A DNA stretch of 63,039 bases, from the IMG/VR virus record IMGVR_UViG_3300011116_000296, positions 1 to 63,039 of that record; one strand, written 5' to 3'. The notes under the pieces are model-generated. The model saw nothing but the letters and a program-made list of their open reading frames with translations, did not search any database and was not told the origin of the DNA. This document shows positions 27,560 to 59,980 of this stretch, in pieces; position 1 is the stretch's first letter, and each line of letters opens with the position of its first letter. This DNA comes from a virus. Made by a program: the position numbers and the translations under genes.

Positions 27560-28078
27560 TTATTTTTGAAGGGGGCGTCTTCCGTTAACGGACCCCCACG
27601 GTCTGCGGTTGGTAATTTGTTCTTGTTTGGTCGCCCATCTGCAGTTTTCCGGACTATAACTTTTTGTATTATCTAGTCTGTCTATGGAATGCCCAGTAGG
27701 TTTGGTCCCCATATCCTCAAAAAAGCATAGCCAGCCGGTTTTGCCATTTTCCCCAAATCTCCAACGGTCGCAGACCGTTATGCCGCTCCCACCGTACCTT
27801 GAATAGCTGGGTTGTTTTGGGTTGTAGCATCGGGCAAGCATCGCCGCGTGGGATTTGTGGGTGTAGTTGCGGCGCTCTTCGTCGGCGGTTTTTATTAGTG
27901 CGGCACGAAACTCATCTGCGTAGCAGCCGCATGAACTTGTATTTCCATTTTTAAGCTTAAACCCCAGTACCACCTTAGTGTTGCCGCAATCGCAAAGGCA
28001 GTTCCAGCGGGCATTGGATTTTTTATCCCGGCTGTGCAAACTCTGCACAATTAGTCTACCAAATCGTTGCTGCTCCAT
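27560..28078 (-). CDS. HNH endonuclease, 172 aa
   Basis: ATG 28078 (MEQQRFGRLIVQSLHSRDKK) has AAGGAAT just upstream; longer frames start without a site. A zinc-ribbon-like part (WNCLCDCGNTKVVLGFKLKNG, SSCGC) precedes ARCYNPKQPSYSRYGGSGI and VCDRW. HSIDRLDNTKSYSPENCRWAT follows, the diagnostic block of a large family of free-standing phage HNH enzymes. It stands alone at the divergent boundary between the early (plus) and late (minus) modules, a typical site for a homing endonuclease. A sequence-specific nicking role is expected. Confidence 0.85.
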   Translation of the reverse strand: MEQQRFGRLIVQSLHSRDKKSNARWNCLCDCGNTKVVLGFKLKNGNTSSCGCYADEFRAALIKTADEERRNYTHKSHAAMLARCYNPKQPSYSRYGGSGITVCDRWRFGENGKTGWLCFFEDMGTKPTGHSIDRLDNTKSYSPENCRWATKQEQITNRRPWGSVNGRRPLQK

Positions 28079-28265
28079 AGGATTCCTTAGGTGGGGGTAT
28101 GGTGGGATTGTATCTGATTTTTTATATTTTTGTGTATATATGTGGGTTTGGGAAAACATTTAAAAAGTGTGGAGTGATTTGTGTAAGTCTTAGAGTAATG
28201 GGGAACACGGGAGTCCCAAAGGCTCCTTGGGTGGTCGGGTATGGGTGGGTTCGACCCGCCAGAAC

Positions 28266-28301
28266 TTTACTTTTGGTTATGGGATGGGGTATAAGTAAAG
28301 T
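28266..28301 (+). promoter_or_regulatory. Early promoter P1
   Basis: TTTACT (28266-28271), an 18-bp spacer and TATAAG (28290-28295), with predicted +1 at A28302. Same architecture as P2 and P3, and likewise preceded by a TTC...GAA dyad (28250-28264). It drives the first early genes. The rest of the 279-bp divergent region 28079-28357 is AT-rich toward the HNH gene, with a TACAAT box at about 28110 on the minus strand but no matching -35. Confidence 0.75.
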
Positions 28302-28329
28302 ATCAGACAGACAATTCGGTGTGTTTGAT
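28302..28329 (+). promoter_or_regulatory. 5'-terminal leader stem-loop of the P1 transcript
   Basis: ATCAGACAGAC...GTGTGTTTGAT can pair from the very first transcribed base (with G-U pairs). Equivalent stem-loops start at the predicted +1 of P2, P3, P4 and P5. Such 5'-end hairpins protect mRNAs from RNase E/RppH-type decay; that role is inferred here. Confidence 0.6.
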
Positions 28330-28357
28330 TTGTTCAACGCTTTAACTAGGAGAGATT

Positions 28358-28546
28358 ATGTTTAAAGCATTATGGGTTTGGTTGACTCACTACAAAGTGA
28401 TCATCCAGTGGGAAGACAAGACGTTTGTGCACTATGCATACACGATGAACGAAGCGCTCAGTTGGGCGGCTCAGTACAAGCTGACGCACACTGTAGTGCT
28501 AATCGGCATCAGAGGCAAGCTAGTCGCGGCGCGAGGCGATTGGTAA
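28358..28546 (+). CDS. Early protein, 62 aa, unknown
   Basis: MFKALWVWLTHYKVIIQWED then MNEALSWAAQYKLTHTVVLIGIRGKLV. AGGAGA lies 7 nt before the ATG. First gene after promoter P1 and closed by its own UUCG terminator, so expressed as a single early message. Mixed alpha/beta composition with many aromatic residues; no signal peptide or TM helix that I trust. Such isolated first early genes often counter host functions, but nothing here shows a target. Confidence 0.75.
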   Translation: MFKALWVWLTHYKVIIQWEDKTFVHYAYTMNEALSWAAQYKLTHTVVLIGIRGKLVAARGDW

Positions 28547-28549
28547 CAC

Positions 28550-28573
28550 GAGGGGCTTCGGCCCCTCTTCTTT
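28550..28573 (+). terminator. Intrinsic terminator after the first early gene
   Basis: GAGGGGC-TTCG-GCCCCTC (28550-28567) followed by TTCTTT. Perfect 7-bp stem with UUCG tetraloop beginning 4 nt after the stop. The next gene starts only 16 nt later without its own promoter, so read-through must occur. Confidence 0.85.
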
Positions 28574-28588
28574 AACTAGGAGAGAGTA

Positions 28589-28774
28589 ATGCAACAGTCA
28601 AACTTAGACGCCGTGCATCAGGTCATAGTTGATGCAGTTCAAATGTGGGCCAGTGGATTAACTACTGACAACGAACTTTGTGAAGCGCTTCATGGAATCC
28701 ACTTAGGTTTTGCGGAGCACAGAAACAACATGTCCGAATTGATAGACCCAAACACTGGGCTTCGATACAAATGA
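28589..28774 (+). CDS. Early protein, 61 aa, unknown
   Basis: MQQSNLDAVHQVIVDAVQMWASG and LCEALHGIHLGFAEHRNNMSE are two amphipathic helices; it ends TGLRYK. AGGAGAG site upstream in the context CTTTAACTAGGAGAG, the same leader as the previous gene, suggesting duplication of the translation start region. Overlaps the next gene in an ATGA. No known family. Confidence 0.72.
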   Translation: MQQSNLDAVHQVIVDAVQMWASGLTTDNELCEALHGIHLGFAEHRNNMSELIDPNTGLRYK

Positions 28775-28962
28775 CAGTCGGTCAGACCAACATTTGGCGT
28801 AAGCATGTGATGGTTGCTATGAGGGAAGCGCTACATCAGCGCCGACCTCTTAGTGTCCTACCTAGTCGATATGAGTTTTTTAAGAAGGCTAGGGAACAAG
28901 TGGCTCGCGCAACGTTTTGCGCAAAGCTAGATGGCGATGAGTACAGCAGACTCAAGCGCTGA
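28771..28962 (+). CDS. Early basic protein, 63 aa, unknown
   Basis: MTVGQTNIWRKHVMVAMREALHQRRP, VLPSRYEFFKKAREQVARATF and a short end YSRLKR: small, basic and helical. Coupled to the upstream gene through ATGA, and followed within 3 nt by a strong terminator. Unknown function. Confidence 0.72.
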   Translation: MTVGQTNIWRKHVMVAMREALHQRRPLSVLPSRYEFFKKAREQVARATFCAKLDGDEYSRLKR

Positions 28963-28964
28963 CC

Positions 28965-28991
28965 AAGGGAGCTTCGGCTCCCTTTTCTTTT
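28965..28991 (+). terminator. Intrinsic terminator
   Basis: AAGGGAGC-TTCG-GCTCCCTT (28965-28984) then TTCTTTT. Perfect 8-bp stem, UUCG loop, U-rich tail. Confidence 0.9.
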
Positions 28992-28995
28992 GGTC

Positions 28996-29108
28996 TTTGA
29001 TACCAGTTATTTGTCGTCGCGAGCGTTTAGCGTGCGCGAGTCAAGCGAATGACTTAGCCGTTCACACCCCGCTGAAACTGTACTTTAAGACCTAGGGTCA
29101 GCTATAAC
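28996..29108 (+). repeat. Intergenic regulatory repeat, copy 1
   Basis: TTTGATACCAGTTATTTGTC, a CGCGAGC...GTGCGCGAG inverted segment, the TTCA-N8-TGAA dyad and a promoter, in that order. The same order recurs at 29839-29951, and without the promoter at 30634-30720. It joins a terminator to the next promoter, so it is a complete spacer unit. Confidence 0.8.
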
Positions 29109-29114
29109 TATTAC
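29079..29114 (+). promoter_or_regulatory. Early promoter P2 with +1 stem-loop
   Basis: TGTACT (29079-29084), an 18-bp spacer and TATAAC (29103-29108); predicted +1 is A29115. The transcript starts with ATCAGG (29115-29120), which pairs with CCTGAT (29137-29142). The dyad TTCA (29061-29064)/TGAA (29073-29076) ends 2 bp before the -35. Confidence 0.78.
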
Positions 29115-29171
29115 ATCAGGTAGACAGTTCGGTTTGCCTGATATTTTGTAACTTGCTTTTAAGGAGATATT

Positions 29172-29780
29172 ATGTCTAAAGCAAAACAATCCGCCCCTTC
29201 ATTGGGTTCTGTAACAGTCACTTCTATGAAAGAAGCTGGCTATCAGTCAGCGATCAGCGATGAACGCAAAGACAGCGTAGCGCGGTATGTCTACGCTCAA
29301 TGCCCTAACTTCACTGATGAAGTCAGCGATGAAGTCAAAACCCAACTTCGTGCGGGTTGGGCGCTTCGTTGGCAAGAACTGAACCCCGCTGTCAGCTATA
29401 ACGAAAGCTGGGTTCCTGTAGAAAATGGTGCGCATGTAATGTCCGTTGACGTATGCTTTAGCTACAGTCAGCAAGCCTTTGGACAGCTTAAAGAAGCTGA
29501 CCCAATTAAGCATGGCATTATCAAGGGTGTTCGCGATACTTTCAATAAGTATGCTTCTAACCGAATGGCTGACTTGAAAACGGCTGTTCGTAAGGTAGAG
29601 AACGAAGGCAAGCCGAAAGTGAAAGCGCCTACAAAGTCCTTCACGAAGTATGTTGAAGAAACATTCAAGGCTATGAAGGCCAGAGCTAAGACAGCGAAAG
29701 CGCGGGGCGATGATACATGCCCTGATGAAGTCAAAATCAGAATGGCTATCGATGCCTTCAATAATGTACTAAGCAAGTAA
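29172..29780 (+). CDS. Early protein A, paralogue of the next gene, 202 aa
   Basis: AAGGAGATATT precedes the ATG. Shares with the 197-aa gene long blocks including DEVKTQLR-GW-LRWQELNPA, SYSQQAFGQLKEADPIKHG, VENEGKPKVKAPTK and a C-terminal IDAFNNVL. A variable N-terminus and a mid-loop (YNESWVPVENGAHV) differ. Soluble and helical, with no catalytic motif that I recognise. Each paralogue has its own promoter, leader hairpin and terminator, so high early expression is expected. Candidates would be host takeover or DNA-binding roles, both speculative. Confidence 0.82.
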   Translation: MSKAKQSAPSLGSVTVTSMKEAGYQSAISDERKDSVARYVYAQCPNFTDEVSDEVKTQLRAGWALRWQELNPAVSYNESWVPVENGAHVMSVDVCFSYSQQAFGQLKEADPIKHGIIKGVRDTFNKYASNRMADLKTAVRKVENEGKPKVKAPTKSFTKYVEETFKAMKARAKTAKARGDDTCPDEVKIRMAIDAFNNVLSK

Positions 29781-29790
29781 CATTGCACCG

Positions 29791-29826
29791 AACCTAGTCA
29801 GCCGAAAGGTTGGCTAGGTTTTTTTT
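29791..29826 (+). terminator. Intrinsic terminator after early gene A
   Basis: AACCTAGTCAGCC-GAAA-GGTTGGCTAGGTT followed by TTTTTT: a 13-bp stem with G-U pairs, a GAAA tetraloop and a long U-tract. Confidence 0.92.
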
Positions 29827-29838
29827 CGCCTGTAGCTT

Positions 29839-29951
29839 TTTGATACCAGTTATTTGTCCCCGCGTGCGCTAAGTGCGTGCGAGCCAAGCCGATCGTTTAC
29901 TGATTCACGCCTCGCTGAAACTTTACTTATGTGTCTTGCATCGGGTATAAC
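29839..29951 (+). repeat. Intergenic regulatory repeat, copy 2
   Basis: Same order as copy 1: TTTGATACCAGTTATTTGTC, GCGTGCGCTAAGTGCGTGCG, GCCAAGCCGATCG, the TTCA-N8-TGAA dyad (29904-29919) and promoter P3. High identity to copy 1 in the first 20 bases and in the dyad-promoter block. Confidence 0.82.
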
Positions 29952-29957
29952 TTAAAC
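29922..29957 (+). promoter_or_regulatory. Early promoter P3 with +1 stem-loop
   Basis: TTTACT (29922-29927), an 18-bp spacer and TATAAC (29946-29951); predicted +1 is A29958. The RNA begins ACCAGATGACA, which pairs with TTGTCTGG (29974-29981). Confidence 0.78.
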
Positions 29958-30004
29958 ACCAGATGACACGGTGTTGTCTGGACAACCGCTTACTTGGAGA
30001 TACC

Positions 30005-30598
30005 ATGAGCAAAGCAACAAAACCCCAAGAGACAATCGTCTCATCATTCAAAGATGCCGCATATCAATCGGCAAGATCTAGTGAAACAATGGCAGTTATT
30101 GCCCGTTTCGTATACGAGCAGTGCCCTACATTCTGCGAATCACAACCAGATGAGGTCAAAACTCAACTGCGCCTCGGATGGGGCTTGAGATGGCAAGAGT
30201 TAAACCCTGCCACTACATTCGATTCCGATTGGAAACCAAACCCCAAGGGAGGTTTCACCAACAGTCTGGATTACTGCTTGTCATACTCTCAACAAGCATT
30301 TGGGCAACTCAAAGAGGCCGATCCAATCAAGCACGGTGTCATCAAGGCCGTGCGTGATAACTTTAACAAGTATTGTTCCAACCGTCTTGCCGATCTCAAG
30401 GTCGCGGTGCGCAGAGTTGAGAATGAGGGCAAGCCCAAGGTCAAAGCCCCTACAAAACAATTTGACGAGTTTCTCAAAGAGTTGTTTACAACAGCAAAAG
30501 CCCGTGCCAAGACTGCCAATGCACGAGGCGACACAACTGCACCCAATGAGGTTAAATTGCGCCAAGCAATCGATGCCTTTAACAATGTTTTGAAATAA
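30005..30598 (+). CDS. Early protein B, paralogue of early protein A, 197 aa
   Basis: ATG 30005 (MSKATKPQETIVSSFKDAAYQ) is preferred over an upstream in-frame ATG at 29963, because it aligns with the start of protein A and has GGAGATACC before it. Shared blocks: VYEQCP, DEVKTQLRLGWGLRWQELNPA, SYSQQAFGQLKEADPIKHG, NRLADLKVAVRRVENEG and AIDAFNNVLK. Protein divergence is substantial, so the duplication is not recent although the regulatory units stay similar. Unknown function. Confidence 0.83.
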   Translation: MSKATKPQETIVSSFKDAAYQSARSSETMAVIARFVYEQCPTFCESQPDEVKTQLRLGWGLRWQELNPATTFDSDWKPNPKGGFTNSLDYCLSYSQQAFGQLKEADPIKHGVIKAVRDNFNKYCSNRLADLKVAVRRVENEGKPKVKAPTKQFDEFLKELFTTAKARAKTANARGDTTAPNEVKLRQAIDAFNNVLK

Positions 30599-30605
30599 GC
30601 ATCTG

Positions 30606-30636
30606 TGCACCGTCAGTTAACGCTGGCGGTGCATTT
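30606..30636 (+). terminator. Hairpin terminator after early gene B
   Basis: TGCACCGTCAG-TTAACG-CTGGCGGTGCA: an 11-bp stem with one G-U pair, then TTTG. The U-tract is short, so termination may be partial. Confidence 0.65.
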
Positions 30637-30720
30637 GATACCAGTTATGAGTCCTCGCGTGCGCTGAGTGCGTTCGCGTGAGCCAAGCCGATCAACTACC
30701 GTTTCAGGGGTACGTGAAAT
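30634..30720 (+). repeat. Intergenic regulatory repeat, copy 3 (without promoter)
   Basis: TTTGATACCAGTTATGAGTC, GCGTGCGCTGAGTGCG, GAGCCAAGCCGATC and the dyad TTTCA-N8-TGAAA (30702-30719) match copies 1 and 2. After the dyad the TTTACT...TATAAC promoter is absent and the TTGGAATC array begins. Confidence 0.78.
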
Positions 30721-31250
30721 TTGTTCCAACGTTCCAGCCCAGTTGGAATCTTGGAATCGCTAATTGGAATCTTGGAATCTGAGTAAAAACAAAATTCCAA
30801 GTTGGAATTCCAGTATTTGTCTCTTATGTAAAGTTGTTCCAATTTGGAACCGCTAATTGGAATCTTGTAAGTCCTTGATTTTAAAGAAGAAAACACCACT
30901 TTTGACCTAAAAATTCCAAAATTCCAGTTTTCAAAAAGGACAAAGCTGGTTGGACGAATGATTTGTGAACGCTTGACTGCGTTAGCAAGTGCAACGCAAC
31001 GATTCTGCGCTAAATATTGTGTTTTTCTCATTTTGCCCGCCGTCCCTGCAAAACGCTGGAATCTTGGAATTTTGGAATAAATATAATTTTTTTTTTTTTT
31101 TACTACTACTACTACTCTACTCTTTATAGTCATTTCATAACCTTAGTATTACTTTTCCAGATTCCAATCGTCCCCAATTTGTTCCAAAAACCCGTTCCAG
31201 TTTCACCCCAAAAAGTCTAACTGTACATATCCAATTCCAATCCCTGTACA
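30721..31250. repeat. TTGGAATC/TTCCAA repeat array in the 858-bp non-coding region (origin or operator candidate)
   Basis: The non-coding stretch 30599-31456 holds four TTGGAATC units (30743, 30751, 30764, 30772). Perfect palindromes ATTCCAA-G-TTGGAAT (30794-30808) and GTTCCAA-T-TTGGAAC (30836-30850) follow, with CGCTAATTGGAATCTTG twice (30759, 30851). Many single ATTCCAA or TTGGAAT copies continue to about 31240. A T13 run and an ACT repeat lie at 31090-31120. Iterons next to an AT-rich segment are typical of replication origins. A repressor-binding array is the alternative. Confidence 0.6.
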
Positions 31251-31295
31251 CTACGCCCCAAGCCCCGCCCCCTAACAAAGTCACCCCACACCCCT

Positions 31296-31368
31296 ATGTT
31301 TATTAGTAAAGTTATGTTACAATTGAATCTGAGTCGGGGAATAACCAGCTGAAAACCTCCCTGCCTCA
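31296..31368 (+). promoter_or_regulatory. Early promoter P4 with +1 stem-loop
   Basis: TACAAT (31318-31323) within a ~45-bp block that recurs upstream of 32683 (P5). +1 is predicted at about T31330. TGAGTCGGGGA (31330-31340) pairs imperfectly with TCCCTGCCTCA (31358-31368). At 18 bp spacing the -35 position reads CTATGT, poor for sigma70. The dyad TTTCAC-N6-GTGAAA (31401-31418) and two tandem ATTCAGTTCAA units lie further down the leader. Confidence 0.6.
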
Positions 31369-31456
31369 ACCCATGCCAACCCCAAGACGATGACCAATCG
31401 TTTCACGGGTAGGTGAAATTCAGTTCAACATTCAGTTCAATTTAGTAGGAGTTATC

Positions 31457-31801
31457 ATGAAAGCTAAGTTCGTCCTCTCCCCTGCGGTTAACGCAAAAGT
31501 GCAACGCGAGATGCTCGCTCACCTGCCCCGCTCCATGCGCAAAGCATTGCGCATTACAACCCCAACGGCACAATCCGTTGCCAAATCGCCCATCGACACA
31601 GATGCAGTTGTGTCTGACTGGTTAGCGATTCACGACCCCCTGAACGACAGCGCATATCTCTGCACAAACACAGTCGACCCCGACATGGACATCCACTCAC
31701 ATATTGAGTTCGGTGACATCGACAACGAGTACGAGGGTCTATCAATAGTCAGCATGGGTAAAGATACTCGTCGCTGGCTCAAGGGCTACAACATCCTGTA
31801 A
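31457..31801 (+). CDS. Early protein, 114 aa, unknown
   Basis: MKAKFVLSPAVNAKVQREMLAHLPRSMRKAL is helical and basic. The second half is acidic (TVDPDMDIHSHIEFGDIDNEYEG) and ends GKDTRRWLKGYNIL. Ribosome site TAGGAGTTATC. First gene of the P4 unit. No family recognised. Confidence 0.75.
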   Translation: MKAKFVLSPAVNAKVQREMLAHLPRSMRKALRITTPTAQSVAKSPIDTDAVVSDWLAIHDPLNDSAYLCTNTVDPDMDIHSHIEFGDIDNEYEGLSIVSMGKDTRRWLKGYNIL

Positions 31802-31839
31802 GCAAATTACAGACAACAATTATTCCAAGGAGCAGCACC

Positions 31840-32142
31840 GTGAAAGTACGCACAAGATTAAAACTGCGGGCATACCGCAAAACTGGCGGGCCGATCAATA
31901 TCGGCAACCGTTGTAAGAGTTACGAGCAAGGATGCGTGGTCTGTGAAGCGTATCGCTTCTATGACGAGCGTGGCAGATTCCCAACATGGGAGGAAGTTAT
32001 GTTGTTTGCAGAACACACGCACGCCGAGATGGTTAAGCGCAAGAGCTACAACCTGATGGTTGACGAGATGGTGCGCCCTCTTATTGACCCCGAGATTCAG
32101 AACACGATGCTTAAACTAATTCTTCAGGAGGGTGTGAAATGA
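31840..32142 (+). CDS. Early protein, 100 aa (GTG start), unknown
   Basis: GTG 31840 with AAGGAG 8 nt upstream. KVRTRLKLRAYRKTGGPINIG, two Cys (GCVVCEAYRFYDERGRF), then TWEEVMLFAEHTHAEMVKRKSYN and a helical end. The CVVC pair plus a nearby Cys could bind metal. Coupled to the next ORF by ATGA. Function unknown. Confidence 0.75.
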   Translation: MKVRTRLKLRAYRKTGGPINIGNRCKSYEQGCVVCEAYRFYDERGRFPTWEEVMLFAEHTHAEMVKRKSYNLMVDEMVRPLIDPEIQNTMLKLILQEGVK

Positions 32143-32315
32143 CGGTCAAGTATTACCCGATGGTGTGGATTCTGTGGTGCAACGACAGGAATGAGAATGG
32201 CGTACACATTGTGCATTTGTTTGCTCACAAGATCGAAGCAGAGGCTTACATGCGTGCGTGTAAGGTAGAAGACGAGCATGGCATTTACTGGATACAAGAA
32301 AAGGAAGTTATATGA
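32139..32315 (+). CDS. Small early protein, 58 aa, unknown
   Basis: Frame from ATG 32139 (overlapping the previous stop, ATGA) to TGA 32315 (overlapping the next ATG): MTVKYYPMVWILWCNDRNE, VHIVHLFAHKIEAEAYMRA and HGIYWIQEKEVI. It reads as a compact beta-beta-alpha-beta protein. ATGA overlaps on both sides make the frame convincing. Confidence 0.72.
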   Translation: MTVKYYPMVWILWCNDRNENGVHIVHLFAHKIEAEAYMRACKVEDEHGIYWIQEKEVI

Positions 32316-32533
32316 CAGACCAAACCCAAGACCAACAGCAATGTTTTACGATCCATGTGCATGTAAAGGATGTGTATGGTAAGAGAGTTGCTTACCCCGT
32401 GTGCGACAAAGCGAAGATATTTGCCGCTATTGCAGGGACGACATCTCTGACTGAGACAACGCTCAAGTGCATACGCAAGCTCGGGTTCGACATACATGTT
32501 GTGCCCAATGAGCAACCGACACTGGGAGTGTGA
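32312..32533 (+). CDS. Small early protein, 73 aa, unknown
   Basis: MTDQTQDQQQCFTIHVHVKDVYG, AYPVCDKAKIFAAIAGTTSLTE and TLKCIRKLGFDIHVVPNEQP. Alternating strands and helices suggest a small alpha/beta fold. Last gene of the P4 unit; no terminator seen before P5. Confidence 0.72.
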   Translation: MTDQTQDQQQCFTIHVHVKDVYGKRVAYPVCDKAKIFAAIAGTTSLTETTLKCIRKLGFDIHVVPNEQPTLGV

Positions 32534-32550
32534 CTCAACAAAGTTAGGGT

Positions 32551-32616
32551 AATACCCTATGTTTATATGTAAAGTTATGGTACAATTGAATCTGTGTCGG
32601 GGAGTAACTCAACACA
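32551..32616 (+). promoter_or_regulatory. Early promoter P5 with +1 stem-loop
   Basis: CCCTATGTTTAT-GTAAAGTTATG-TACAATTGAATCTG matches P4 almost base for base, with TACAAT at 32581-32586. +1 is predicted at about T32593. TGTGT (32593-32597) pairs with ACACA (32612-32616), with an inner GAG/CTC. The dyad TTCA (32632-32635)/TGAA (32644-32647) lies in the leader before the ribosome site. Confidence 0.6.
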
Positions 32617-32682
32617 ATGATCGACTACCGATTCAGGGTATCGTGAAATCCAATTCAGTTTTTATTCAGTCAGGAGATAGTT

Positions 32683-32979
32683 ATGGGACAGTTCAAAGAC
32701 ATCGACACAATTCTGCGTCAGATCGCAGACGACGTAAATGTGCATCCCTCCATCCGCGAGGCATTGCGCAATTCAACCCAACCAAACCAACCAACCGCTG
32801 TACAACCATTCGCCAAAGTGTACTTACTTCTGTGTGACGGCGACGTCACCGATGTGTTCACCGACAAAGCAATGGCGATGTATGACATGCATACATGTAT
32901 CAAAGCAGACGAGGAAGAGGGTCTGAACCACGAGTGGCGCGTCATTGTTCGTCAACTCAACACCGACACCCTTCCATGA
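32683..32979 (+). CDS. Early protein, 98 aa, unknown
   Basis: MGQFKDIDTILRQIADDVNVHPSIREAL is helical. After a NQPTAVQP linker, FAKVYLLLCDGDVTDVFTDKAMAM and EEGLNHEWRVIVRQLNTDTLP look alpha/beta. The Shine-Dalgarno is AGGAGATAGTT. First gene of the P5 unit, coupled by ATGA to a zinc-finger ORF. Confidence 0.75.
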   Translation: MGQFKDIDTILRQIADDVNVHPSIREALRNSTQPNQPTAVQPFAKVYLLLCDGDVTDVFTDKAMAMYDMHTCIKADEEEGLNHEWRVIVRQLNTDTLP

Positions 32980-33179
32980 CACCTACATGTTCAGCATGTG
33001 GTGAATTGTTTTCTATTGCTCGCCATAGCATCGGCTATACATTGTGTATGCCATGTGGCGAGAGACAGGCACGGGGTGTTAATCACACCATCGTGCCGAT
33101 GCCCAAGTCCAACTACATCGTTGTGACTGATCGTTCTCTATTACTTAATCTCAACTCAAGCCACAAGGGAGGCCGTTAA
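32976..33179 (+). CDS. Small zinc-ribbon protein, 67 aa
   Basis: ATG 32976 overlaps the previous stop. CSACGELFSIARHSIGYTLCMPCGER gives two CxxC pairs about 16 residues apart, a single treble-clef or ribbon. The rest (TIVPMPKSNYIVVTDRSLLL) is unstructured. It may bind DNA or a protein partner such as RNA polymerase; unproven. Confidence 0.7.
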   Translation: MTPTCSACGELFSIARHSIGYTLCMPCGERQARGVNHTIVPMPKSNYIVVTDRSLLLNLNSSHKGGR

Positions 33180-33180
33180 C

Positions 33181-34089
33181 ATGAACTTTGAACTTCAACA
33201 ACCGAACCACATCATCTCACTCGCGACATCAGCACTTGTCGTATGCGTGGACGTGAACGTGTGGACAGCAACCAAACAGGATCGCGCTATCTCTAACGAG
33301 GTAACAACATCTAAGAAAGCCTCAGCCGATGCAGGTAAGTTCACCAAGAACTTACTCTCGGATTCACCCGACCACAAGGCGCTACTGAACTATCGGCAGA
33401 CCGTGTATAACTGGCTTCAGCGTTCCACGTACGACTGGGCGGGTTCGATGCGTCTGCTTCCAACGATCAACCTTGAAAAGTTCAAGAAGGAGTACGCCCA
33501 ACATGAGCGCGACTTTGAAGCTCTGCTCGAGAAGTTTATTACCGCATACCCGCAGATTGTCAGCGATGCGGCGTTCAAGCAAGGCGACATGTTTAATCGT
33601 TCAGAGTACCCTGAAGCGCAAGATGTTCGTAGCAAGTTCAAGATTCGCTTACATGTATCACAGGTTCCGACATCCGACTTTCGTTCATCCGTGAGCGAAG
33701 CATTGGCAGAAGATCTGAAGAATCATTACGAGCGTCAGACACAGGAGATTATTAACTCTGTGATGGACGATGCGTCAATGCGTCTTGTAGAGATTGCTTC
33801 ACGGTTGTCTAACGCATGTACCGAGGCAACACCCGACGAGGACGGCAAGGTTCGCCGTAAGAAGATCTACGACAGCACAGTCAGCCAAGCCAAGGAGATT
33901 TGCAAGACCATTGAGAACTTCAACTTGACAGGTAATAAAGCATTATCACAGGCAGTAGTTGACCTGAGCTTTGCGCTTGAGAACGTATCGACAGAGGATC
34001 TGCGTGAGAGTTCTTATGTGCGTAGCGTAGTCAAGGAAAACGTGGACGACATGTTGTCTAAATTTAAACCCATCAAAACTTATATGTAA
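33181..34089 (+). CDS. DUF3150-like protein of the MoxR/VWA module, 302 aa
   Basis: GGAGG 8 nt before the ATG. N-terminus LATSALVVCVDVNVWTATKQD, then TSKKASADAGKFTKNLL and a mostly helical body with LLEKFITAYPQIVSDAAFKQGDMFN (in parts), PEAQDVRSKFKIRLHVSQVP and a helical C-terminus. The pattern (VNVWT-TKQD, then K-L, then FKI) matches DUF3150-type phage proteins, known chiefly as neighbours of MoxR-type ATPases, as here. Likely partner or adaptor of the AAA+ ATPase; biochemical role unknown. Confidence 0.72.
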   Translation: MNFELQQPNHIISLATSALVVCVDVNVWTATKQDRAISNEVTTSKKASADAGKFTKNLLSDSPDHKALLNYRQTVYNWLQRSTYDWAGSMRLLPTINLEKFKKEYAQHERDFEALLEKFITAYPQIVSDAAFKQGDMFNRSEYPEAQDVRSKFKIRLHVSQVPTSDFRSSVSEALAEDLKNHYERQTQEIINSVMDDASMRLVEIASRLSNACTEATPDEDGKVRRKKIYDSTVSQAKEICKTIENFNLTGNKALSQAVVDLSFALENVSTEDLRESSYVRSVVKENVDDMLSKFKPIKTYM

Positions 34090-49896: not shown

Positions 49897-49914
49897 TAAC
49901 CCATATTGTTTACA

Positions 49915-49939
49915 GGCGAGGCCGGTCCTCGCCTTTATT
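49915..49939 (+). terminator. Intrinsic terminator before the primase gene
   Basis: GGCGAGG-CCGGT-CCTCGCC (49915-49933) then TTTATT. Perfect 7-bp stem, moderate U-tract. Confidence 0.72.
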
Positions 49940-52828: not shown

Positions 52829-53030
52829 GGCGGCTCCACTTGATGAGCCTGAGTGGCTTTTCCCCTACGAGTACATGCTTGTGGGGGAGAGTTTCTTTAT
52901 CCCAACTATGCGCCCTGCATACATGGGCTACATCATAGATACAACGTCTAAGAAAGTCGGAATAAAAATGAAGACCTTCACTTGCACCGAGAACGGCGTC
53001 CTCGGTGTTCGTGCTTGGCGTATGGGTTAG
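52806..53030 (+). CDS. Small conserved protein, 74 aa
   Basis: MSKKLPSEAAPLDEPEWLFPYEYM, GESFFIPTMRPAYMGYIIDT and IKMKTFTCTENGVLGVRAWRMG. Looks like a small beta-barrel or OB-like protein with a disordered start. Overlaps the primase gene by 23 nt. Last plus-strand gene: its TAG shares bases with the TAA of the convergent 2317-aa gene. Confidence 0.75.
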   Translation: MSKKLPSEAAPLDEPEWLFPYEYMLVGESFFIPTMRPAYMGYIIDTTSKKVGIKMKTFTCTENGVLGVRAWRMG

Positions 53031-56000
53031 GGTTCAACACCCATCATTTCAAAGTCTTCTATGATCCCACGCTTGACTAAGTTTTGAAACTTGACAACAT
53101 TCTTAACAGCTTCCGTGCGTTCCTTGGGTGTTAGGCCCGGCATACGGCGGTAAATGTTTGCCTCTTCCCGCAACTTTTTCAAGTCTTGGTTGATTACTTT
53201 GTTGTAGTGCTCAACTATGTATTCGTCCATCGGATTCTTCTCAACGTATCGGGCATACGCTTCTGGGTTTGAATCCTTAAACATGTTGAGTTTTTGTTGT
53301 TTAGACAAAATCTGTTTCTCAACCTCTGAGAACTGCCGTGCATCGTAGTTTGACGGTGCGCCAAAGAAGCTATCAAACAGCACGGTATCAGTCTTAGGAT
53401 TGAATGCCTTTTCACCAGCCGCCAGCAGACCGTAGTTATATCCAGTCTGAGCCAAACGCATCAGTCCATCGCCATAGGTATTGGCAAAGAAGTACATTGT
53501 GTTTGGACTCCAGTCCACCTTGCCGTCTGTGATTTCAGCCAAAGTACGTGCGGCAGACTTGTACAACTCAGGGATGTTGTCGCCACCTGTGTAAGCATCG
53601 CCATAGCGTGACTGACGGTTGTTGTAAATCTCACGACCCAGACCATCGACGTTCATCACCCACTCAAGGAACGGACGCGCAACGGAAGGCGTTGCAGAAT
53701 CCATTGCCCATGCTGGGAAGTTGTCTATCGGACTAATGCGCGAGACCGGCAGCGGCAAGAACGAATCCAAGCCTGTCACAACAATATTACCTAAAGCATT
53801 CTTAACGGATGAGTTGCCTGTAGCCAACGCTGTAACCTGTGCGCCAGCAGATGCGAATGCGCCAAGACCAAAGCCCCAAGGAATTTGGATTGGTGTTTCC
53901 ATTCCGGGAATATGGAAGCGGGCATAGCGTGACCAGCGGTTTGGATCATCAGTGGCAGTGCGGTTGCGACCTAGATCGTCGTCGTCAGACATCGCCATAG
54001 ACATCAAATAGATTGCACCGCCCATGCCAAGCAAGCCCAAGGTCATTGCGGTAGCGGCCTTCTTTTGTTCGTTGTACTTTTTCAAGAACTCAGCGCGAGC
54101 CACTTTGTCTTTTTGAATGTACTCAGGCAGTTCTTTCAACGCATCTTCTGGATCGCGTAGCATCGGGCCTAGTGTTTCAATAGCCCTGACAGCACCAGTA
54201 GCGGCTGGACGGAAGAACATGAACGCCGCACCAGCGGCACGGCCCCACTCACCAACCTGTTCAAAGTTGGCAAGACCTTTAGCGTAACCAGCGGCTTTGA
54301 CTTGCGCATCAGCAGGGGAGAGATTTTCTGCCAATGCTTGTGACTTGGCGATACGATACGCCGCAGTGCGGCTTGCCAATTCAAACATGTCAGTCCAGAT
54401 GTCAACAAACTTGTCAATCTGATCTTTAGTCTTCAAGATGCCGGTACGGTCAAGTGACTTTTGCAATTCTTTAAACTGACCCTTAGAAGAAAGGCCGGCA
54501 AGATATGACACTTTACCGCCCTGCTCAATAAACTCAAGCATGTCGCGTACATAGCCATTCTTCTTAGCCATCGCTCTAATTTGGTCAAACTTACCTGCCT
54601 CATACAGCGCGGCAACTTTAGCGGCGCGGAACAGACCACCACTTGCTACATCTGTAGCGATAGCGCCAATGTATTGCGCGGCGGCTTTTGGACCCATCTC
54701 AACACCAATTGAGTATGCGTTGGTTAGAGCATCACGGAAGAAGTTAACTGGCGCAAATGCAACGTTGTAACGAGTGTGCAATTGACCCACACCGCTAGTG
54801 ATGTGGTTCAACATATCAATGATCGGCTGAGACTGCTCGTATGTACGGCGGATAGCGTTGCGCTGCGCCTTATCAAAAATCTCAATTACATCAATACTGC
54901 CATCCTTGTTGTAATGGAAGATGACGTTTTCTTTCTTCTCTTCGCCAATGTTCAGGTCTTTATAACGATCTGCAAATGGAATTGTTTTGAAGATACGACC
55001 TTTGAGTAATTGATTGCCATCTTTATCTTTAGCCACAGCGTTTTTAATTGCAAGCGTCACATCCCTACGACCAGCACGCATAGCGGCACGCGTTGCATCA
55101 GTCAACGATTGAACAATAGAGTTATCGGAGTCAGTTTCACGACCTTCAAAAGAGTTCTGACCTTCTTGCAGTTCACGACCATTGCGTTTGCTGTTGAAAT
55201 CAAGCGCGGCATCAGCATCGTTAGTGTACTTTTCTTTACCAGCAAAAGGCACATAGTTTTTCCAACCGTAAAAGTCCACAATACTTTGCACGGGCGCTGA
55301 CCAGTAGTTAGCCTCTTTGTTTAACTCTCTTGTTGCGTCTTGCAACTTGCGCATAGCGGCAATAACTTTGTCCACTTCCTTCTTGTTAGGATCATTCTCG
55401 TAAGAGTTGATAAAGTTCTGAATGGACTTGGGTGTGTAGCCACCAATGACGTTGTACTCTTCGTTATTACGATCAACAGATTTATAACCATTTGGGCTTG
55501 AACCGGTTGGGTCTTTGTACTTAGCTACAACATTATCTAATGCAGTGCGGGCAGTTTCAATCTGAGTCTTGTTTAATGTGCCAGACAACACTTCATCCAT
55601 GATGCGCTCACGGAACTCAGCAGGACTCATGACTTCATTGCCAATTTTAAGAATCTTATCGTTGCTAAGTGGTACATTCAACATGTACTTCACGTCACGA
55701 CGCTCACCCTCGTGCAGACCCATCAGGTACACATGTAAACGCTCGGTCGCTTCTTTAGAGGTCAAACCCGAAGCCTTGGCATAAGCACCGATTGCGCTCT
55801 GCATATCACTTGCAGGAGTATTGACTCTTGTCAAGTACAAGTCTTTGGCACGAGAAGCGGCTAAGGCAATCTGCGTATAGATGTTGTTCAGTTTACTGCC
55901 GCTATAAATAATCTTACCGGCACGGGTCAAGCCATCTTCCCAGCTCTTGATTGCATAACGAGCATTTTGAAACTTAGTCACTAAGTTCATACCACCTTGA

Positions 56001-59000
56001 CGTGTTGTGAACAGTTTGCGCAACGCATTGATACCACTTGTCTCAGGTAGTTCATTACGTTTGATCGCTTCTTCTGTAGTAACGTCAACTTTAGCTGGAG
56101 CTTTTTGTGTGGTTGGTTTTTGTGTAGTTGGTTTTTGTGTAGTGCCAGCGGCTCCTTTGGCTTTTGCAGACAACTCAGCTGCTTCACCAATTGTTTCTTT
56201 ACCAGCAAGGCGCTCAATACCACCTTCAGGTGCGGCAAGAATATCTTGAAAAGCTGCGGCAGCTTCTAACAGCAAGTTACCTTTATAACCGGGGGAACGT
56301 AGAATTTCACGGCGTAGGTTTGTTACGCCACGCTCGTTGACCAATTCGCCCTTCAGCGGAGGAATTTCAGCTATATCAGCTTCTTCAGGACTGTCAAACA
56401 AAGACTCAGGCGCAAGCGCTTCTTTCTCAGCAAGATCCAACTCTCGTTTTTCTTTTTGCTCTCTTGGCGCAATAGTTTTTTCTTTGGTAGCTTTCTGAGG
56501 AGTACCGGTCTTCTCAGTTGGCATTAAAATCTTTTGACGCGTTTGTTCTGGACGGAACAACTTGTACATGAACGCAAGAGTACCTGTGAAATAATCCCAC
56601 AGGTTATCAAACATGCTGTCATACGAGCCTTCGCGCACACCGGTCTCACGCTCAAGCTGCAATTCTTCAGACTGCTCTTGTGTCTTTGCTGTAGCGTACG
56701 CTAGACGAGGAATCTGAATACCAGCCAGTTCGTTCTGGAACTCCATATCGGTCATCGCATAAGCAATGAACTCGTACAGGTTGTCAAACGCATTGGGGTA
56801 CTTACTGCCGAGCTTGGCTTTGGCGGCGCTGGCAATATCAATTAGGCGTTCAACAGACGCCGCTACACGCGGGTCAAGCTTTGTTTTATCAGTGAAGAAC
56901 TGATGAATGATCTTTACAGTAGCGGCGTGAGTCAACTCGTGCAGGATCGTAGCTTCATCCAAACCGTATGGACCAACATATAAAGTATTTGTGTTGGCGT
57001 CGTACTTGGCAATTTGCTCATGTATCATGTTCTTATCGAACACAACATTTACTTTGAGGTCGGCAATGTTGGATAAAGTACCAGCCAATGTGCGGAAAAC
57101 GCCCATTGCAACTGAATCACGAATATTAACAACGCCACGCCGCAAAACCGTCTTACCATTAACTCCTGTAAACGGTACTAGATCGTAGCCGCGCTTAAGC
57201 TTCAGACCATGCCCTTGTGTACTCAAATACTCCAGCACAGATTTAATGTCACCGCGTGCAAGCTTCTTCAGAATATCAAGCGGCAGCACCTGCCCTTTAC
57301 CAGCAGGTTGTGATTTACGTGCGCGTTCACCGGCGGCAAGCATCTCTTGTGTTGCACGGCTTTCAGCTTCTTGCAAACCTTCACGCGAAGCTTGCGCCGA
57401 TAGGTCTTTTTGAACTTGTTTCTTTACGGCACGGAACGCCATATCCTGTTCAAGAACAGTGTCTGTCTTATTTACATCTGCGTACGCTTTACGCGCTTCA
57501 GGAGACAAATCACCCCAAATAGGAAACTCATACGCAAGTCCAGTTTTTTGACTGAACGCGCTACGCTCACGGTTATAACTATCCCGCGCTTTGGCTTCGC
57601 CTGTAAAAGATTCTTCAGATGTTTTACGTGATTCACGATACTCAGCTAATTTTTTAACTGCGTTGTCGTGCTCTACCTGATTGTTCTGCCTGATGTTGTC
57701 ACGGAAATACACGCGACGCTCATCGTCTTTTAGTTCTTTATATGCAGGGAGCGGCTCTTCACCTTCTTCAAGTTTAGAGTTGTAATCTTGACGAGTTTCT
57801 TCGTACAAGTCACGTTGTTCTTGTGATGGGAAGTAGCCTCGTTCTTCTTTTAATTCTTGACCGGCAATAGTCTGTTCGCTAACGGCGGACAAGGGCTGAG
57901 TCTGACGTTCTTTCTCAAACGCCATAGCACTGCGGATACGTTGACCAAAAGCCCGTTGTGTTTCGCCATCACGTTGCGTCAAACCATAGCGCTTACCAAG
58001 GGCTTCACGTTTTTCATCATCGGCAATTTGTGCTTTAGTGCGACGCGCTGAGCCGGCTGAAGGAAGACCATCATCCCCAAAGAGTTTATTGATTAAATCT
58101 TCGTCTTCTTGTAAGGCTGTTTTTACAGCGGGGGCTGCGGGTGGTTTTTGTCCTTGCGCTTCTGCTTGCTGGGCTTGAGTGGTTTGAGTGCCAAGTGGTG
58201 CTCCTGCTGGTTGAGTAGTTTTACGACGTAGTTGTTCGTCTTTTAAAAGTTTATATTCAACATCATCACCACCAAACATCATTTGGTCGGTTAGCTTGTC
58301 ATTTAAGTCTTTGTCTGTAAGCGCGCGTACTTGAGCTTCTGTGGCTATTGGAGCGGGCTTTGTTCCTTTTCCTTCAGCAGCGCCTGTAGCATCCGCTCCA
58401 GTAGAAACCACTCCATTTCGTTGAGCTTCTCCAGCTCCTGCGGCGGGGGGAATGACGTTGGCTGGTTGTGTAAATAACGCAGTGCTCGTTCCAGCTGCTT
58501 CACCGAGAGTTCCTGTAGCATCTTCCGCTCCCTTCGGGCTGATCGTGGATAACGCATCATCAATACTCACTTTAAGTTTTGCGTTTGAATTGCGCTTATT
58601 AGTAAGTTTGTTTTGCTCACCTTTTGTGAGGCTCATGCCACGCGACTCTAACTCTTTGATCTCAGCATCGCGCTTGTCATACTCAGCTTGCATCGCCACA
58701 ATCTTTGGATTGCGCTGTACTTCAGCTATGTCTACTGGCGGCGTTTCAATCACAGTGCCGGGCGCAACTTCTTCAAACTCAGTGCCAATGATTGAAGGCT
58801 TACCTTTTTTCTCAGGTTCAGTTTTAACTTCTTCTGTGATGGCGGTTTCTGCTTCTTGCTTCTGCTGTTCCTCTTCGCGTTGCTTAAGCGCTTCTTGTCT
58901 TAAGACTTCATCACGTATTTGTTGATCTGATTGACGGCCACCAACGATGCCAGTTACCCCGCCCATGCCAGCCGCACCGATTGATGCCATAGCCGCAGTT

Positions 59001-59980
59001 TCGCCCAAGCCCGAAGTCAGGTCACGATCAAGACCAGCGGCGCGGGCCGCAATGTTTTGCGCAAGGCGACCACCAACTTCTTCCACGTTTTCGCTTGGAA
59101 GTTCTTTAAGCGCGCCTGTAACAGCGCCACCCAAAATGCCTTTGCCTGTTTTCTCACCAGCAAGCACGCGCTCAAGCGCACTGCCACCGGGCAAGAAACG
59201 ATTTGCAAGAACGGACAGCGCGTAACCCGATACACCAGCGGCACGGGCTAAATTAATTGTCTCAGCCGCAGCTTGTTCAGCGGGCATTCTCTTAGACAAC
59301 TCTGCATAGATCTCATCGTATGAGCCAGCGCCAATGTCTGCACCTTGTTGTACTGCGCCAGTTTGAAGAGCAGCAGTCGCGCCAGACTTGATAGCGGCTT
59401 TTTTAGCGGCGGCTTCAGCGGCTTCTTTTGCCGTACCTTTAGCAAGTTCTTTAGCCAGCGTGCTACCAGAAGTAAGTGCGGCGGTAGTACCGCCTGTAAG
59501 AGCAGCGGGGATAATCTGTGGAAGTTGTTCAGCTAAGAATGATGTCAGCAGTGCCGGGTCAGAAACAGTCTCACCCAACGCAGTTTTAAATGCGGCAAAC
59601 TGACCTTGCTTTTCTGCTTGCGCAACCTTTTCAGAGCGAGCCTTTTCACGCGCCAACAAAGACGCAGACTTCAAGCCCTTTGCATATTCTTCAATGTCTT
59701 GACCAGCGCCCAATGCGCCTGTTTTAGAAAAGTCACCTGTGGCTAAGCCATAGAGTTGACCGGGCAATTGAACAAGACTACCAATACCGCCCAGACCCGC
59801 TGCGCCTATATCGGTAAATGCTTCACCAAAAGTGCGTTCTGGAATACTAGGCGCGGCAGGTTTAGCGGCAGGTTTTGGGGCCTGCATGTGGGTTGTATAC
59901 GCCCACTGCCACGCTGTATTCTCATCCGGCGCTTCAACTTCGTATTTAGCACCTTCAACGTTTACAGCAAATTTAGCCAT
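53027..59980 (-). CDS. Giant polyvalent virion protein with HExxH motif, 2317 aa
   Basis: Last gene of the late operon. N-terminal EGAKYEVEAPDENTAWQWAYTTHM is a conserved ~35-residue head domain. Hydrophobic Gly/Ala-rich segments (40-330) alternate with amphipathic helices, and then comes a long charged region (350-950). A metallopeptidase-like motif DEATILHELTHAATVKII (HELTH at about 1014-1018) follows, and QFFTDKTKLDPRVAASVE. The C-terminal part has VAFAPVNFFRDALTNAYSIG, which resembles LPD38-type domains of large polyvalent proteins, and a hydrophobic LGLLGMGGAIYLMSMAM. Probably an ejected internal protein that processes the host envelope or delivers DNA. Overlaps the 630-aa gene start by 1 nt. 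Confidence 0.85.
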   Translation of the reverse strand: MAKFAVNVEGAKYEVEAPDENTAWQWAYTTHMQAPKPAAKPAAPSIPERTFGEAFTDIGAAGLGGIGSLVQLPGQLYGLATGDFSKTGALGAGQDIEEYAKGLKSASLLAREKARSEKVAQAEKQGQFAAFKTALGETVSDPALLTSFLAEQLPQIIPAALTGGTTAALTSGSTLAKELAKGTAKEAAEAAAKKAAIKSGATAALQTGAVQQGADIGAGSYDEIYAELSKRMPAEQAAAETINLARAAGVSGYALSVLANRFLPGGSALERVLAGEKTGKGILGGAVTGALKELPSENVEEVGGRLAQNIAARAAGLDRDLTSGLGETAAMASIGAAGMGGVTGIVGGRQSDQQIRDEVLRQEALKQREEEQQKQEAETAITEEVKTEPEKKGKPSIIGTEFEEVAPGTVIETPPVDIAEVQRNPKIVAMQAEYDKRDAEIKELESRGMSLTKGEQNKLTNKRNSNAKLKVSIDDALSTISPKGAEDATGTLGEAAGTSTALFTQPANVIPPAAGAGEAQRNGVVSTGADATGAAEGKGTKPAPIATEAQVRALTDKDLNDKLTDQMMFGGDDVEYKLLKDEQLRRKTTQPAGAPLGTQTTQAQQAEAQGQKPPAAPAVKTALQEDEDLINKLFGDDGLPSAGSARRTKAQIADDEKREALGKRYGLTQRDGETQRAFGQRIRSAMAFEKERQTQPLSAVSEQTIAGQELKEERGYFPSQEQRDLYEETRQDYNSKLEEGEEPLPAYKELKDDERRVYFRDNIRQNNQVEHDNAVKKLAEYRESRKTSEESFTGEAKARDSYNRERSAFSQKTGLAYEFPIWGDLSPEARKAYADVNKTDTVLEQDMAFRAVKKQVQKDLSAQASREGLQEAESRATQEMLAAGERARKSQPAGKGQVLPLDILKKLARGDIKSVLEYLSTQGHGLKLKRGYDLVPFTGVNGKTVLRRGVVNIRDSVAMGVFRTLAGTLSNIADLKVNVVFDKNMIHEQIAKYDANTNTLYVGPYGLDEATILHELTHAATVKIIHQFFTDKTKLDPRVAASVERLIDIASAAKAKLGSKYPNAFDNLYEFIAYAMTDMEFQNELAGIQIPRLAYATAKTQEQSEELQLERETGVREGSYDSMFDNLWDYFTGTLAFMYKLFRPEQTRQKILMPTEKTGTPQKATKEKTIAPREQKEKRELDLAEKEALAPESLFDSPEEADIAEIPPLKGELVNERGVTNLRREILRSPGYKGNLLLEAAAAFQDILAAPEGGIERLAGKETIGEAAELSAKAKGAAGTTQKPTTQKPTTQKAPAKVDVTTEEAIKRNELPETSGINALRKLFTTRQGGMNLVTKFQNARYAIKSWEDGLTRAGKIIYSGSKLNNIYTQIALAASRAKDLYLTRVNTPASDMQSAIGAYAKASGLTSKEATERLHVYLMGLHEGERRDVKYMLNVPLSNDKILKIGNEVMSPAEFRERIMDEVLSGTLNKTQIETARTALDNVVAKYKDPTGSSPNGYKSVDRNNEEYNVIGGYTPKSIQNFINSYENDPNKKEVDKVIAAMRKLQDATRELNKEANYWSAPVQSIVDFYGWKNYVPFAGKEKYTNDADAALDFNSKRNGRELQEGQNSFEGRETDSDNSIVQSLTDATRAAMRAGRRDVTLAIKNAVAKDKDGNQLLKGRIFKTIPFADRYKDLNIGEEKKENVIFHYNKDGSIDVIEIFDKAQRNAIRRTYEQSQPIIDMLNHITSGVGQLHTRYNVAFAPVNFFRDALTNAYSIGVEMGPKAAAQYIGAIATDVASGGLFRAAKVAALYEAGKFDQIRAMAKKNGYVRDMLEFIEQGGKVSYLAGLSSKGQFKELQKSLDRTGILKTKDQIDKFVDIWTDMFELASRTAAYRIAKSQALAENLSPADAQVKAAGYAKGLANFEQVGEWGRAAGAAFMFFRPAATGAVRAIETLGPMLRDPEDALKELPEYIQKDKVARAEFLKKYNEQKKAATAMTLGLLGMGGAIYLMSMAMSDDDDLGRNRTATDDPNRWSRYARFHIPGMETPIQIPWGFGLGAFASAGAQVTALATGNSSVKNALGNIVVTGLDSFLPLPVSRISPIDNFPAWAMDSATPSVARPFLEWVMNVDGLGREIYNNRQSRYGDAYTGGDNIPELYKSAARTLAEITDGKVDWSPNTMYFFANTYGDGLMRLAQTGYNYGLLAAGEKAFNPKTDTVLFDSFFGAPSNYDARQFSEVEKQILSKQQKLNMFKDSNPEAYARYVEKNPMDEYIVEHYNKVINQDLKKLREEANIYRRMPGLTPKERTEAVKNVVKFQNLVKRGIIEDFEMMGVEP

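Follow-up and report, generated by a model that had tools for sequence, protein, structure and literature searches.

Stem-loops at or near the 5′ end of the message are known from bacterial stabilising leaders such as those of E. coli papA, hairpin-tagged bla and B. subtilis aprE, in which structure counts over sequence and few or no 5′ nucleotides are left unpaired. The bla mRNA is stabilised by a 5′ hairpin, which impedes conversion by RppH (PMC3997798, citing Emory, Bouvet and Belasco 1992), and the RppH of B. subtilis requires at least two unpaired 5′ nucleotides (PMC3997798). Here we describe hairpins of similar placement in a 63,039-nt stretch of viral DNA (the window), a 63-kb phage record of IMG/VR (IMGVR_UViG_3300011116_000296, positions 1 to 63,039), where each of five predicted promoters, P1 to P5, is followed by a stem-loop at its predicted transcription start. 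The bacterial stem-loops belong to single genes and have a stabilising effect, whereas the phage hairpins, known from sequence alone, occur at each of the promoters in an early-type block of genes and covary across many phages.

Several phage systems share features with this arrangement. In T4-type phages, exchangeable small genes are surrounded by PeSL (promoter-early stem-loop) cassettes, modular intergenic units in which a terminator stem-loop is combined with an early promoter. The present cassettes resemble them in their organisation as modular units; however, the PeSL stem-loop lies upstream of the promoter, whereas here an additional hairpin forms the predicted 5′ end of the transcript. 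The put RNA of HK022 is a sequence-specific element of two hairpins that causes antitermination in cis near the start of an early transcript. The hairpins described here are likewise close to the start of predicted early phage transcripts, but their sequence is variable, with one hairpin in the P1–P3 leaders and two in those of P4 and P5. Among five promoters of T7 that are read by the host polymerase, C has a hairpin from +2 and A2 starts, by eye, with GCTAG-gtaaca-CTAGC, whereas A1, A3 and B have no hairpin at +1. The early promoters of N4 also contain inverted repeats. However, these are DNA hairpins centred at −11 that are read by the virion RNA polymerase (vRNAP) (PMC4496689), whereas the present hairpins would form in RNA, past +1, behind sigma-70-type boxes.

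Promoters and hairpins in the window

A scan of the window with the pattern TNTACT-18-TATAAS-6-AYCAG returned exactly three sites with zero mismatches, at 28266, 29079 and 29922 (+ strand, as are all features below unless stated otherwise), and six sites with up to three mismatches compared with a mean of 1.2 in shuffles. The −35 box, 18-bp spacer, −10 box, 6-nt gap and A(T/C)CAG that an earlier sequence-only reading of this DNA had ascribed to P1–P3 are therefore matched exactly at all three. P1 combines TTTACT with TATAAG (28266..28295) and keeps its position in relatives, P2 combines TGTACT with TATAAC (29079..29108), and P3 TTTACT with TATAAC (29922..29951). P4 and P5 have a common 40-nt block around TACAAT, which occurs only at 31299 and 32562 with none expected, in agreement with the second −10 block proposed for these two promoters. 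Their −10 boxes (TACAAT, 31318..31323 and 32581..32586) are not preceded by a good −35 box, with no clear one at P4, but an extended −10 is present (TATGNTACAAT), which reads TATGT in P4 and TATGG in P5. A plain consensus promoter scan did not show promoters in excess. The predicted first transcribed bases of P1 to P5 are 28302, 29115, 29958, 31330 and 32593. The sequence AACTTTACT around the −35 boxes of P1 and P3 (28264-28272 and 29919-29928) reappears as its reverse complement, AGTAAAGTT, in the spacer of P4 (31305-31313); the counterpart in P5 is TGTAAAGTT (32568-32576). Perhaps AACTTTACT and AGTAAAGTT are the candidate site of one regulator, used in both orientations.

Fold energies and z-scores were calculated for RNA folded from the predicted +1. 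The hairpin of P1 (ATCAGACAGACAATTCGGTGTGTTTGAT, 28302..28329) has an energy of −10.3 kcal/mol (z −2.2), the 11-bp hairpin of P2 (ATCAGGTAGACAGTTCGGTTTGCCTGAT, 29115..29142) −14.8 kcal/mol (z −5.3), and the hairpin of P3 (CCAGATGACACGGTGTTGTCTGG, 29959..29981) −11.8 kcal/mol (z −2.7). The P4 hairpin (TGAGTCGGGG...CCTCCCTGCCTCA, 31330..31368) folds with −12.3 kcal/mol (z −2.6) and that of P5 (TGTGTCGGGGAGTAACTCAACACA, 32593..32616) with −8.4 kcal/mol (z −1.7); covariation is seen for the hairpins of P2, P3 and P5. The A at +1 had been taken as the first hairpin base in P1–P3. This is the case in P1 and P2, whereas the +1 A of P3 is unpaired and the stem begins at the predicted +2. The leaders of P4 and P5 form a terminal hairpin, as had been suggested. 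The P4 hairpin has a large loop in the window genome, most of which is deleted in two relatives (L005 and L011) that keep the stem, and a C-A mismatch in the P5 stem of the window is replaced by C-G in relatives L094 and L105. The P2 hairpin is followed by ATTTTGT and is picked up by the terminator scan.

Within the window, the five hairpins stand out no more than moderately (z −1.7 to −5.3). Scanning the whole window for a −10 box plus a hairpin at +1 is too unspecific to name further members, as it returns many chance sites. An Rfam search of positions 27900-33200 gave nothing above the gathering score; a sub-threshold match to SNORA32 lies outside the leaders. The evidence from the single genome is suggestive, weak to moderate, and the relatives decide.

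The hairpin keeps its distance from the −10 box in relatives

Leaders were defined as the DNA upstream of the start codons of homologues of the promoter genes in viral contigs, which yielded 174 leaders, 137 of them distinct in the leader region, in 73 clusters below 75% identity. A promoter score that took no account of structure picked the −10 box, after which the leader was searched for its most stable compact hairpin; a version of the search that admitted outer pairs blurred the hairpin start. The hairpin starts 6-8 nt past the −10 box in 26 of 71 leader clusters, compared with 6.3% in dinucleotide shuffles (binomial P 5e-14), with a peak at 7 nt. The mean hairpin energy of the leader clusters is −11.2 kcal/mol vs. 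−6.2 kcal/mol in shuffles. A second set of 87 distinct cassettes was located via the upstream 20-mer TTTGATACCAGTTATNTGTC, which occurs in 98 viral contigs. In this set, 39 of the 87 hairpins have an offset of 6-8 nt (6 nt in 11, 7 nt in 12 and 8 nt in 16), compared with 7.1% in shuffles (binomial P 5e-22). The two sets overlap in some loci and are independent in the way they were found.

Among the 56 leaders with an offset of 6-8 nt, the stem starts at +1 in 36, at +2 in 14 and at −1 in 6, so that the starts peak at +1/+2, within ~2 nt of the predicted 5′ end. The distance from the hairpin to the ATG differs more widely, from 10 to 88 nt across gene types, with medians of 29 nt for P2-type, 23 nt for P3-type and 20 nt for P1-type leaders and a range of 50-88 nt for P4/P5-type leaders. 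Despite this longer distance, the P4/P5-type hairpins have an unchanged place relative to +1.

Stems covary while their sequences change

Covariation was assessed by pair counts against shuffled and slid-arm controls, in place of R-scape. The P2-type alignment comprises 19 distinct 28-nt leaders, chosen by loop motif and promoter spacing and not by pairing. In this alignment 96.2% of the cells are paired and both partners have changed in 9 of 11 pairs; each of the values was unmatched in 500 shuffles, and slid arms pair in 24-42%. The P3-type alignment has 98.4% of its cells paired, a percentage that is partly circular because the set was drawn from leaders with hairpins; 6 of 9 pairs show both-side changes, and two of five covariation measures are not above shuffles. 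In the nine P5/P4-type sequences, 96.3% of the cells are paired and 3 of 9 pairs have both-side changes. The non-Watson-Crick cells of the three sets together are 62 G-U vs. 5 A-C or C-A. Thus, the constrained molecule is the RNA of the transcribed strand rather than a DNA palindrome.

Stems and loops vary both between genes and between phages. In distant homologues, for example, the hairpin at +1 is ACTGGGCGGCA-ATTC-TGTTGTTCAGT (L112), ATCGATTAGCG-ATTC-TGCTAGTCGAT (L122) or TGAGTCGGG-AGGTAG-CCTGACTCA (L074). The P1 leader of the window and of two relatives (L018 and L144) carries a P2-like hairpin; in most other relatives almost this position is occupied by a hairpin unrelated to it, GCA.AGCA-ATAG-TGC..TGC. 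This replacement suggests that leader cassettes may be exchanged by recombination. The leaders passed the pair-count tests for the covariation that the sequence-only reading had led one to expect, and its proposal of selection for a 5′-end hairpin of changing sequence is strongly supported by this covariation together with the fixed offset from the −10 box in both sets. The comparisons therefore show a hairpin that is present as RNA, selected as a structure and tied to the start site.

Probable protection of the 5′ end and alternative explanations

The +1 hairpins are probably best explained by protection of the 5′ end. Each promoter would be read by the host sigma-70-type RNA polymerase, with transcription starting 7 nt past the −10 box, and the first bases would fold into a hairpin, as a rule of 8-11 bp, with 0-1 and no more than ~2 nucleotides unpaired at the 5′ triphosphate end. 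Such a hairpin would bar an RppH-type pyrophosphohydrolase and the 5′-end-dependent RNase E (or RNase J) from the 5′ end, and the short, separately terminated messages would live longer. As these messages end at intrinsic terminators, each would have to survive on its own. With 0-1 nucleotide predicted to be unpaired at the 5′ end, the leaders agree in geometry with the stabilising 5′ stem-loops already described (PMC3997798), a geometry known to result in poor RppH conversion and in resistance to decay that depends on the 5′ end.

Several points weigh against this explanation. The transcript starts are predictions and the decay enzymes of the host are assumed. The relatives are mostly metagenome contigs, and the P5 hairpin is weak in the window (z −1.7). 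The offset of 6-8 nt is absent from about half of the leaders that were scanned blind to structure; among these, some of which were checked, are leaders with a visibly misassigned −10 box and others with a stem lengthened by weak outer pairs, and the fractions given above are probably underestimates. Furthermore, sequestration of the 5′ end had no stabilising effect for rpsO, nor for lacZ transcribed by T7 polymerase (PMC3997798).

Other roles for the hairpin were weighed against the same observations. RNA emerging from the polymerase begins with the hairpin, whose distance from the promoter is fixed; intrinsic terminators lie between the genes, and a second conserved dyad or hairpin follows downstream in P4/P5-type leaders. 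These features would suit an action of the nascent hairpin on RNA polymerase itself, through promoter escape, less early pausing or backtracking, or antitermination in the manner of HK022 put. However, put RNAs are sequence-specific whereas the stems and loops here vary freely, the leaders of P1–P3 have a single hairpin, and a strong terminator closes each unit, as if termination were wanted; we regard such an action as unlikely, though it is, with an effect on ribosome access, one of the two chief rivals. Somewhat more doubtful is a translation insulator, which would prevent pairing of the leader with the Shine-Dalgarno sequence or provide a ribosome standby site. The distance from the hairpin to the start codon is fairly constant per gene, and the linker in the P1 and P2 leaders of the window is A/T-rich and unpaired, with the Shine-Dalgarno region outside the hairpin. 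Yet the P4/P5-type hairpins, 50-88 nt from the ATG, are placed alike relative to +1, and insulation does not need a stem that starts at +1. Because the Shine-Dalgarno sequence is free in P1 and P2 and the ATG lies 10-88 nt away, a purely translational role is disfavoured. A site for an RNA-binding protein of phage or host, for instance an autoregulatory operator of the P2 and P3 paralogues, would account for the C-AATTCG-G loops of many P2-type hairpins and the GNGG loops of P3-type hairpins, in genes that are themselves paralogues. However, the P2-type set was picked by its loop motif, which makes loop identity a matter of construction, other loops are found in P1 relatives (ATAG), P4, P5 and many distant P2 homologues, and unrelated hairpins substitute for each other at the P1 site. 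Since loops and stems differ between genes, a single sequence-specific binding protein is disfavoured, and a role as a protein site is improbable.

The inverted repeat could also act as DNA, as the operator of a dimeric repressor over +1 or as an extruded promoter hairpin of the N4 type. A 2317-aa protein (53027-59980, − strand) matches phrog_2206 'virion RNA polymerase' with an E value of 1.7e-14, but the best stretch covers residues 988-1093 only, and the excess of G-U over A-C (62 vs. 5), a preference confined to one strand, is unexpected for a DNA palindrome; a function as DNA is thus very improbable. By Pfam, the domain of the 2317-aa protein is LPD38; the protein also has a HELTH peptidase-like motif, lacks motifs B and C of the T7-like type and gave no match to a solved vRNAP, so that its PHROG label appears misleading. 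No T7-like virion RNA polymerase was found in the phage, the proteins of which besides the 2317-aa one were tested in part. An N4-type vRNAP promoter was rejected given the location of the hairpins at +1 to ~+39 behind −35/−10 boxes, the missing polymerase motifs and the G-U/A-C asymmetry. Least credible of all is an attenuator, that is, an intrinsic terminator near the start. ATTTTGT follows the P2 hairpin of the window and at least five T occur in the next 8 nt after 12 of 56 hairpins, but this T run is absent in the other 44, P3, P4 and P5 of the window included. With a T run directly after the stem in 12 of 56 only, a conserved attenuator was rejected.

The gene block and other cassette elements

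The best matches of the terminase are phage DSL-LC04 and pelagiphages (48-52% identity), and those of the DNA polymerase are Rhizobium and KPP25-type phages (32-34% identity). Leftward genes extend to 28159 and rightward genes begin at 28358, which places P1 at the divergence point. P1 precedes a 62-aa gene (28358..28546) with 36 related loci, P4 a 114-aa gene (31457..31801) and P5 a 98-aa gene (32683..32979). The 202-aa gene under P2 (29172..29780) and the gene of ~197 aa under P3 (30005..30598) encode paralogues with 65% identity. Because the longest open reading frame of the P3 gene opens at 29963, inside the hairpin, the ATG at 30005, with the Shine-Dalgarno sequence TTGGAGAT immediately upstream, is the likely start. 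The genes under P1, P2, P4 and P5 are of unknown function. None of the genes behind P1–P5 has a PHROG match, nor a Pfam match for those scanned, and the P1, P2 and P4 proteins have zero homologues among 50,697 catalogued phage records. The predicted structure of the 202-aa protein is of low confidence (mean pLDDT 59). The terminator scan located intrinsic terminators 3′ of the P1 gene (28550..28567), directly ahead of the P2 cassette (28965..28984) and between the P2 gene and the P3 cassette (29790..29821). Judged by its position and sigma-70-like boxes only, the P1–P5 block is probably expressed early.

An invariant element, TTTGATACCAGTTATTTGTC, is located upstream of P2 (28996..29015) and of P3 (29839..29858) and is present in 98 viral contigs. 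A third copy, TTTGATACCAGTTATGAGTC (30634..30653), is not followed by an early promoter. All three copies, of the form TTTGATACCAGTTAT(TT)GTC, stand behind intrinsic terminators. A GC-rich hairpin (CGCG...) tends to begin 7-8 nt past GATACCAGTTAT, and the 20-mer may be a second promoter class or a protein site. The single bacterial match of the 20-mer, in a Flavobacteriales metagenome-assembled genome (L180), has no surrounding cassette and was set aside as chance.

The −35 boxes of P2 and P3 are abutted by the dyads GTTCACACCCCGCTGAAAC (29060..29078) and GATTCACGCCTCGCTGAAAC (29902..29921). The same GTTTCA-N8-TGAAAY dyad lies downstream of the +1 hairpin in the P4 leader (31400..31419) and in the P5 leader (32630..32649), and a further one is found at 30701-30720. 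In relatives the arms of the dyad change jointly, as in TTCCACG/CGTGGAA and CTTCAG/CTGAAG. Between 30718 and 31220, repeats of the TTGGAATC/GATTCCAA type are numerous and occur in either orientation, along with a T run (31088-31101); this stretch looks like an origin of replication or another iteron region. Far from the block, at 49902-49930, CATATT is followed after 6 nt by AGGCGAGGCCGGTCCTCGCCT, just ahead of the primase/helicase gene at 49952. This site is possibly a further promoter with a +1 hairpin, or a terminator.

Implications

The working principle of the 5′ stem-loop is known. Its use as a rule, with covarying hairpins at many promoters in a clade of uncultured phages, turned up neither in Rfam nor in the open-access subset of the literature that was searched. 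The textbook cases of protection by a 5′ stem-loop come from few genes, and here it is apparently the rule for a whole set of phage promoters. Tentatively, the clade may use one modular cassette in which a terminator is followed by the invariant TTTGATACCAGTTATTTGTC, a GC-rich hairpin, the dyad, a sigma-70 promoter, the +1 hairpin and the gene, and in which the 20-mer would itself be a second, phage-specific promoter or activator site whose predicted transcript would likewise start at a hairpin. If this is true, the +1 hairpin would be a design rule over two promoter classes. The dozens of independently diverged natural hairpins, all at one and the same spot, form a library for relating stem strength and 5′ overhang to mRNA lifetime, and +1 hairpins offer a route to predicting transcription starts in uncultured phages from sequence only. 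Decay from the 5′ end would thereby be marked as a pressure against which phages may act in cis.

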